NCBI RefSeq assembly: GCF_902506435.1
Contig: NZ_LR733215.1
Span: 2,148,958-2,212,957, forward strand
Source of the DNA: Nocardioides sp. AX2bis
Lineage (GTDB): Bacteria; Actinomycetota; Actinomycetes; Propionibacteriales; Nocardioidaceae
DNA length: 64,000 bases
Direction: 5' to 3'
Shown: positions 35,274 to 38,069 of the stretch, piece by piece
How the letters are laid out: every line of letters starts with the position of its first letter
Position numbering within the stretch: position 1 is the first letter of the stretch
The notes under the pieces: model-generated
Database searches by the model: none
The model's input: the letters and a program-made list of their open reading frames with translations, nothing else
What the model was told of the DNA's origin: nothing
Translations under genes and position numbers: made by a program

Positions 35274-36578
35274 TCAGCCGACCGGGGCCTGGATCGGCCC
35301 GGTCTCCCACAGGTCGGGGTGCTCGGCCAGCCAGGTCCGCGCGTCCCGGCGGCCGAGGTCGCGGGCGGCGTCGAAGAAGTCGGGGTCGAACAGCAGGTAG
35401 CTCAGCAGCTCGCCCTGCAGCGGGCTGTCGCTGCCGAGCAGCCGGTGCACCACCTGCAGGTCGGGGTCGGACAGGGTGCCGCGCCACGACTTGTGGTTCT
35501 CGCGGAACACCTCCAGCGCCGTGTCGGCCAGGGCGTCGCCCCGCTCGGGGGCGATCGCGACGTAGGGCACGACGCGGTACCCCGGCTTCCCCCGCGACGA
35601 GCGGTGCCGGTCGAGCGCGGGGCGGAGGTCGTCGTCGGCGGCCATCGCGTTGGTCTCGGCCAGTCGACGGAGGTCGTGGCGCATCGGGTCGTCCATCACC
35701 GACCCGAGCAGGGTGGCGCCGCCGTCGCCGAGGTCGACCGGGGCGCGGTCGAGGGCCGGGTCGGCCGGGCGCGGGTGCAGGCTGCCGGTGCCGACGGCCA
35801 CGACCCGCTCGGCGCCGAGCTCGAGCGCGGGGGCCAGCGGCACCCGGCGGCGGGTGGCGCCGTCGGCGTACCAGCCTGCGGCCTCCTCCGGGGAGTCCAC
35901 CCGCACCGAGGGGAACAGCGTCGGGATGGCCGAGGAGGCCATCAGGTGCTCCACGCCGAGGCGGGTCCGTACGAACCGGCGGTAGCCGTCCGGCGTCGGG
36001 GAGCCCGGCAGGTCGGTGTGGTCGGGACCGGTCTCGGTGAACATCACGACCTCACCGGTGCGGACGGCCGTGGCCACCACCGACAGGGCGTGCACCCGGC
36101 CCTGCTCGAGGTTGTCGTGCAGCGAGTCCCAGGTGATCGCCCGGCCCAGGGTGCGGGCCAGCGGAGCCGTGCCGAACAGCCCGCGCAGCCGGAAGACCGA
36201 CAGGCCCAGGGTCTCGGAGGCGTAGCGCAGCGCGACGACCGGGACCTGCTGCCACAGCGGGCGGATCACGTGCCGCTTGGTGGCCTGGCCGAGGGTGGCC
36301 ACGAGACGCTCGACCTGCTCCTCGGCGTCGAGGTGCGCGGTCGAGGTGAGTGCGGCGGCGAGCAGCGCGCCGGCGCTGGTGCCGAGGTGCAGGGTCGGGT
36401 GCACCCCTCGGCGCTCGAGCTCGGGGAGGAGGACCTCGAGCACCCCGACCTGGTACGCCGAGCGGGCGCCGCCGGCGTCGAGCACCAGGGCGACCTCACC
36501 GTCCGTCCCCGCCCCGTCGCGCGGGGACCCGTCGGGACGGGCGGGACGGGAGGGGCGGCGGGGCTCGGCAGGGGGCAC
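35274..36578 (-). CDS. Patatin-like phospholipase
   Basis: 434 residues. The oxyanion loop [17 protein letters not shown], nucleophile motif [13 protein letters not shown] (GXSXG) and DGATRRR (catalytic Asp) mark a patatin-like Ser/Asp acyl hydrolase. There is no signal peptide. The frame extends to 36722, but GTG 36578 lies seven bases after TAGCAT and gives a leaderless start, whereas the longer form would run into the rpsF leader. Confidence 0.88.
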
Positions 36579-36645
36579 CCGCCGGATGCTAGACGGTGCG
36601 CCCGGGCCTGGGGACGATGATTTCGGCACCTCGGCGACACGCTGG

Positions 36646-36765
36646 TACCTTGTGCTGTCCTCGCGACCAGCCGGACCCGCAGACCGGGTCCGCGCCCCGA
36701 GGAGCACAGGCCCTCCTGCCACGGAGATTCCGTGGCCACCTAGCCCACAGGAGGTGGAGACAGCC
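36646..36765 (+). promoter_or_regulatory. rpsF leader with SD-sequestering structure
   Basis: TACCTT (36646-36651) is a plausible -10. The leader holds hairpin CGGACCC/GGGTCCG (36672-36678, 36686-36692), then CCTCCTG (36712-36718), complementary to CAGGAGG (36748-36754), which is the rpsF ribosome-binding site. Between them CCACGGA/TCCGTGG (36719-36725, 36729-36735) forms an inner hairpin. This would hide the Shine-Dalgarno and resembles the known S6:S18 autoregulatory leaders, though I could not match the protein-binding bulge. Confidence 0.6.
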
Positions 36766-37056
36766 TTGCGCGCTTACGAAGTCATGGTCATCCTTGACCC
36801 CAGTCTCGACGAGCGGACTGTCGAGCCGTCGCTCGACAAGTACCTCAACGTCATCCGCAAGGACGGCGGCACGATCGACAACCTCGACGTCTGGGGCCGT
36901 CGGCGCCTGGCCTACGAGGTCAAGAAGAACGCCGAGGGCATCTACGCCGTCGTCACGCTGCAGGCCGAGCCGGCCACGGTCAAGGAGTTCGACCGCCAGC
37001 TCACCCTGAACGAGTCGATCCTGCGTACCAAGGTCCTCCGGCCCGACGCCCACTGA
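36766..37056 (+). CDS. rpsF: 30S ribosomal protein bS6
   Basis: 96 residues: [53 protein letters not shown] and [15 protein letters not shown] are the full bS6 sequence. The start is TTG 36766, preceded by AGGAGGT at the expected distance; the longer frame upstream is the leader. bS6 binds 16S rRNA together with bS18. It leads the rpsF-ssb-rpsR-rplI operon. Confidence 0.97.
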
Positions 37057-37160: not shown

Positions 37161-37763
37161 ATGGCAGGCGAGACCGTCATCACCGTCGTCGGCAACCTCG
37201 TCGACGACCCCGAGCTTCGCTTCACGCCCTCCGGGGCGGCCGTGGCGAACTTCCGGATCGCGTCGACTCCGCGGACCTTCGACAAGAACACCAACGAGTG
37301 GAAGGACGGCGAAGGCCTGTTCCTCTCCTGCTCGGTGTGGCGTCAGGCCGCGGAGAACGTCGCCGAGTCCCTCCAGAAGGGGATGCGCGTGGTCGTGCAG
37401 GGGCGGCTCAAGCAGCGCTCCTACGAGACCCGTGAGGGCGAGAAGCGCACCGTCGTCGAGCTCGAGGTCGAGGAGGTCGGGCCGTCGCTGAAGTACGCCA
37501 CGGCCAAGGTCGCCCGAGCCAGCCGCTCCGGCGGCAACGGCCAGGGCGGCGGCGGGTACGGCGGGGGCGCCCCTCAGGGCGGCTCCGGCGGCCAGGGCAA
37601 CCAGGGTGGTTCCGGCGGCGGCGGTTCGTACGGCGGGGACGACCCGTGGGCGACCCCGGCTCCCCAGCAGGGGGGTCAGGGCGGCCAGCAGCGTCCCGCC
37701 GGTGGCCAGCAGGCCGACCCCTGGGGGGCTCCGGGCGTCGGCTCGGAAGAGCCCCCCTTCTGA
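37161..37763 (+). CDS. ssb: Single-stranded DNA-binding protein
   Basis: 200 residues. The OB fold spans residues 1-115 ([74 protein letters not shown]), then a Gly/Gln-rich linker of about 70 residues and the acidic partner-binding tip ending EEPPF. It protects ssDNA and recruits repair and replication proteins. Its place between rpsF and rpsR is conserved. AGGAG lies at 37151. Confidence 0.97.
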
Positions 37764-37832: not shown

Positions 37833-38069
37833 ATGGCCAAGCCAGTGGTCCGCAAGCCGAAGAAGAAGGTTTGCCAGTTCTGCAAGGAGAAGGCGACCGG
37901 TGTCGACTACAAGGACGCCGCCCTGCTCCGCAAGTTCATCTCCGACCGCGGCAAGATCCGCGCGCGTCGGGTCACGGGCAACTGTGTCCAGCACCAGCGC
38001 GACGTCGCCACGGCCGTGAAGAACGCCCGTGAGGTCGCCCTGCTGCCGTACACCGCGACCGGTCGCTGA
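37833..38069 (+). CDS. rpsR: 30S ribosomal protein bS18
   Basis: 78 residues: [46 protein letters not shown] is bS18 with the zinc-ribbon cysteines (CXXC and NC), i.e. the C+ form. Actinobacteria often carry a second, Cys-free paralogue used under zinc limitation; none is visible here. bS18 pairs with bS6 in the 30S platform. Confidence 0.97.

Follow-up and report, generated by a model that had tools for sequence, protein, structure and literature searches.

The leader of rpsF in Nocardioides sp. AX2bis is, with high probability, a member of the widespread S6:S18 r-leader family (rpsF_leader), for which we predict autogenous feedback through masking of the Shine-Dalgarno sequence. Such leaders are very widespread in bacteria and resemble the S6:S18 site in rRNA (PMC7247131), and very little is known about feedback by ribosomal proteins in Actinobacteria (PMC8470358). 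The leader lies in a stretch of 64,000 nucleotides (the window), to which all coordinates refer. It precedes rpsF in an operon with rpsR, holds the Shine-Dalgarno in its outer stem, contains a hairpin with compensatory changes, keeps the cytosines contacted by S18 and is homologous to leaders of the B. subtilis type; it departs from the family in the S18 box, where the third base is not G, and does not score at the gathering cut-off of RF02893. Its position, structure, compensatory changes, CC(G) box and homology to the Bacillus leader, which is reported to bind S6:S18 (PMC4647458), support the preliminary description, which had proposed an S6:S18 feedback leader.

Structure and position of the leader

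Read from the window sequence, the leader runs from 36711 to 36768 as CCCTCCTG CCACGG AGATT CCGTGG CCA CCT AGCCCA C AGGAGG TGGAGACAGCC TTG, with all features on the forward strand. The S6:S18 leader element proper (36711–36754) consists of an outer stem (P1), an inner hairpin (P2) and an internal loop that carries the S18-recognition box and the AGNCC element, and it was delimited on the basis of a covariance model match (R1, described below; 69.6 bits over 36711–36768), the fold z score and pair counts. The 5' strand of P1, CCTCCT (36712–36717), pairs with 36749–36754, that is, with the Shine-Dalgarno, so the nearly invariant 3' strand AGGAGG is itself the Shine-Dalgarno (AGGAGGTG in its extended form, 36749–36756). 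Enclosed by P1, P2 is a perfect hairpin (36719–36735, CCACGG-AGATT-CCGTGG), with its strands at 36719–36724 and 36730–36735. The box follows at 36736–36738, recognized from column counts and a genus-wide pattern search, and reads CCA in the window. The conserved AGNCCA element, AGCCCA in the window (36742–36747), is present in Bacillus leaders too. Eleven nucleotides separate the element from the TTG start codon of rpsF at 36766. Taken with one further pair, the arms are the 7-nt CCTCCTG (36712–36718) and CAGGAGG (36748–36754); their pairing around an inner hairpin, 5' of a TTG start, had been noticed beforehand and is borne out by sequence and fold and, decisively, by the covariation of the inner hairpin.

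The isolated 44-nt element has a predicted energy of −21.1 kcal/mol (z = −4.25), a stability equalled by none of 200 shuffles, and the P1/P2 structure described above is exactly what minimum-energy folding returns. Over 174 leaders from Actinobacteria the mean predicted probability of P1 was 0.64.

The feature had originally been given as 36646–36765. The element does lie inside this span, but the position 36646 is the start of the probable −10 hexamer of the rpsF promoter (TACCTT, 36646–36651, forward strand), and the element proper is therefore restricted to 36711–36754. The hexamer was assigned from sequence, with similar TAnCCT/TAnCTT motifs at the same place in relatives, and a sigma-70 consensus search at the rpsF promoter gave no hit. 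Towards the leader's 5' end, a second hairpin (GGACCCGCAGACCGGGTCC, 36674–36692) is found in a stretch that is variable among relatives.

Downstream of the leader, curated models identify the gene order rpsF-ssb-rpsR-rplI, all on the forward strand: rpsF, for ribosomal protein S6 (36766–37053; TIGR00166, 84.5 bits), whose orthologues start at the same place; ssb (37161–37763; NF005851, 272 bits); rpsR, for ribosomal protein S18 (37833–38069; TIGR00165, 98.9 bits); and rplI, for ribosomal protein L9 (38083–38529; TIGR00158, 116.5 bits). By alignment, the S18 encoded in the window retains the residues that match K60 and R63 of E. coli S18. The TTG start had been regarded as rare and as lowering basal translation. 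It is not rare at rpsF: of 174 leaders, 112 are followed by ATG, 41 by TTG and 21 by GTG, and TTG is used at 33 of 114 sampled loci of the genus. Nothing links TTG to regulation, and given its frequency we rejected it as a specific regulatory feature. On the other side of the leader lies a divergent patatin-like gene (35274–36584, minus strand), which matches the models for CBASS lipase and RssA only weakly, far below their cut-offs.

Conservation and covariation

We located S6 genes in three sets (39 relatives, 147 genomes from the genus, 296 from the class) and took 174 actinobacterial leaders from the fetched loci and stretches; the leader pattern is present in all 174, and the 111 distinct leaders make up our alignment (A1). 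The check for covariation that had been suggested gave a clear result for the inner hairpin. P2 is paired in every cell of the alignment, with two-sided compensatory changes at all six pairs. P1 showed no compensatory changes, with 99.7% of its cells paired and four of its six pairs free of any variation. This near-invariance is expected because the 3' strand of P1 doubles as the Shine-Dalgarno, and taken alone it is neither for nor against P1. Of all cells, 99.8% pair; the covariation score is 0.150, compared with 0.081 ± 0.003 in shuffled alignments and at most 0.057 in slid versions; the observed values were reached in none of 500 shuffles. Both P1 and P2 were recovered unaided by RNAalifold from the alignment. 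The result is a clear and testable structure for the rpsF leader across the class.

Conservation extends to the internal loop. In the AGNCCA element (columns 41–46) the A, G, C and C are invariant in 111 of 111 leaders, matching the CCG box in invariance, and no role for this element was found stated in the literature examined. Three leaders carry an extra hairpin between the CCG box and AGNCC (L143:129-223, L160:115-223 and L154:58-136, the last on the minus strand). The inner hairpin is enlarged in L143 and L160, and box and AGNCC are unchanged in all three. The linker between box and AGNCC thus seems free to carry inserts.

Distribution of the motif

The covariance model R1 was built from A1, that is, from actinobacterial leaders only. 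Searched against the genome, it returned the window site as the single strong site, the next scoring 19.8 bits. With strict filters, 88 of 298 genomes of the phylum were matched, 49 from the same class and 39 from outside it; the 210 misses are from outside the class, and no genome of the same class is among the misses listed. All 39 out-of-class sites lie next to an S6 gene of the same orientation, with offsets of −9 to +4 nt. In Bacillaceae, R1 matched 25 of 26 rpsF leaders directly before rpsF, with E values from 8e-5 to 0.12, the weakest of which are marginal taken singly. The alignment shows GCCGC and AGNCCA to be common to the actinobacterial and Bacillaceae leaders. A feedback leader is indicated, as in the preliminary description, but not the distinct actinobacterial version that its wording suggests, since the same widespread motif is found by R1 in Bacillaceae.

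The search with the known motif, also suggested beforehand, turned out differently. Rfam gave no match on the window leader, either at the gathering cut-off or at E values up to 10, RF02893 included. RF02893 did not match the Bacillus leaders, nor did R1 match the E. coli rpsF leader. As a positive control, RF02893 scored 110.1 bits on the E. coli leader, and the silence of Rfam on the window leader is attributable to RF02893 fitting the E. coli type. The Rfam family for the rpsF leader therefore misses the Gram-positive form.

A variant S18 box

The window leader departs from its relatives in the box itself. Among the 111 aligned leaders the box is CCG in 107 and TCG in three, and CCA is found only in the window, so that every leader but that of the window (110 of 111) has G in third place, and the window has A. 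The second cytosine is present in 111 of 111 leaders and the first in 108, and the window keeps both (36736–36737). A pattern search for a non-G third base in 216 genomes of the genus, with the hairpin fixed at 17 nt so that leaders of other hairpin size are missed, gave no second case at rpsF; its other matches lack the sequence of the leader. Six leaders of the genus have a TCG box (L064, L070, L071, L081, L101 and L103); whether C or U, the first base of the box is able to pair with the G preceding the hairpin, as G-C or G-U. A compensating change in 16S rRNA was considered and rejected, as the 16S of this genome still carries CCG (ACCGG) at the S6:S18 site.

We regard CCA as a departure within the family and not as grounds for exclusion, since in E. 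coli regulation was abolished by a box mutant in which both cytosines were altered and the G was left (PMC4647458); the leader is placed in the family by descent and structure. The change may tune or weaken the response to S6:S18, although an assembly error could also account for it. With the 16S unchanged and the leader otherwise intact, there is a modest chance that mRNA and rRNA here have come to differ in their affinity for S6:S18, a natural retuning of the feedback. The variant offers a natural mutant for testing the role of the third box base.

A rival reading is that the leader is an S6:S18 leader by descent in which the G-to-A change caused recognition by S18 to be lost or weakened in this species, leaving a hairpin that lowers basal translation only. 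The uniqueness of CCA, both among the 111 leaders and by pattern among the genus genomes, and the intact CCG of the 16S site speak for it. Nonetheless, both S18-contacted cytosines are kept and the structure is intact, the substitution has little effect on the predicted fold (for P1, a probability of 0.77 with A against 0.82 with G), and the six TCG relatives indicate that the box tolerates some change. We consider this loss or weakening unlikely.

Unlikely alternatives: masking without a ligand and other pairings

The stem might also mask the Shine-Dalgarno without any protein ligand and thereby fix translation at a low rate. In the predicted folds of the leaders, the stem alone does leave most of the Shine-Dalgarno paired, with a mean unpaired fraction of 0.13. 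Plain masking, however, needs neither the CCG box nor AGNCC, both of which are near-invariant and common to Bacilli, and such constitutive attenuation is very improbable.

An even smaller likelihood attaches to a different masking structure, an alternative hairpin CCACC/GGTGG that joins 36736–36740 with 36753–36757. It pairs perfectly in the window and, allowing G-U, in relatives, and pairing of the CCAC/GTGG type competes in folds of longer stretches around the element, where competing folds bring z to about −1.8. It shows no covariation, however, with 204 of 500 shuffles pairing equally well, and its pairs at columns 31/55 and 30/56 are broken in 20 and 13 of the 111 leaders, respectively. 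We therefore rejected it as a functional hairpin.

Finally, chance complementarity or mere conservation of the Shine-Dalgarno, with no RNA structure, could be suspected from the lack of covariation in P1 and from the arm pattern, which by itself is not proof since it is found at five places in the genome, compared with two in the control. Within the window the pattern occurs once, where shuffled sequence would yield 0.02 occurrences. The absence of structure is refuted by the P2 pair counts and by the matches that R1 places at rpsF leaders of the phylum and of Bacillota.

Proposed mechanism

Autogenous repression by masking of the Shine-Dalgarno is the best explanation of the window leader, because it shares the known anatomy and S18 has kept the equivalents of K60 and R63. 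What the analysis shows directly is the fold with its conservation and covariation, where it lies, its homology to the Bacillus leader and the retention of these S18 contact residues; that S6:S18 binds and represses in this species is inferred. If production of S6 and S18 outran that of 16S rRNA, the S6:S18 dimer would bind the box beside P2, which would imitate its 16S site. Binding would stabilize P1, which holds the rpsF Shine-Dalgarno, and translation of rpsF would fall. Translation of ssb-rpsR-rplI would probably fall as well, by coupling or mRNA decay. With CCA instead of CCG, the window leader may respond more weakly.

Comparison with known S6:S18 leaders

Repression by this type of leader is documented in E. 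coli, where S6 and S18 together repress an rpsF fusion fourfold, at translation, and where mutating the stems, the box cytosines or K60/R63 of S18 abolishes or weakens repression (PMC4647458). Both the B. subtilis and the E. coli leaders bind S6:S18, the B. subtilis RNA in vitro, according to the same study, which cites Fu 2014 (PMC4647458). In the S6:S18 leader the CCG sits in a bulge between the stem and the hairpin (PMC10931766).

The S6:S18 leader of Chlorobi shares with the window leader the operon and the proposed ligand, but is reported as a separate motif without rRNA resemblance (PMC7247131). The E. coli leader (RF02893) is likewise an rpsF leader with GGAGG in an outer stem, an inner hairpin and conserved cytosines. 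It differs in that Rfam draws the conserved CC on the 5' side of the inner hairpin (L055:237-321), whereas it lies 3' in Actinobacteria and Bacilli; this is either a rearrangement or a matter of modelling. The 16S site of S6:S18 (C719 C720 G721 beside helix 23a; ACACCGGTGG in this genome) also places CC(G) next to a helix, although the element in the mRNA is far smaller and incorporates the Shine-Dalgarno. With the B. subtilis rpsF_leader the window leader has in common the outer stem with the Shine-Dalgarno, the inner hairpin, CCG-C, a short linker and AGNCCA, directly before rpsF; it differs in its longer, GC-rich P2 (6 bp, CCACGG/CCGTGG), in CCTCCT where Bacillus has GCTCCTT, and in its CCA box.
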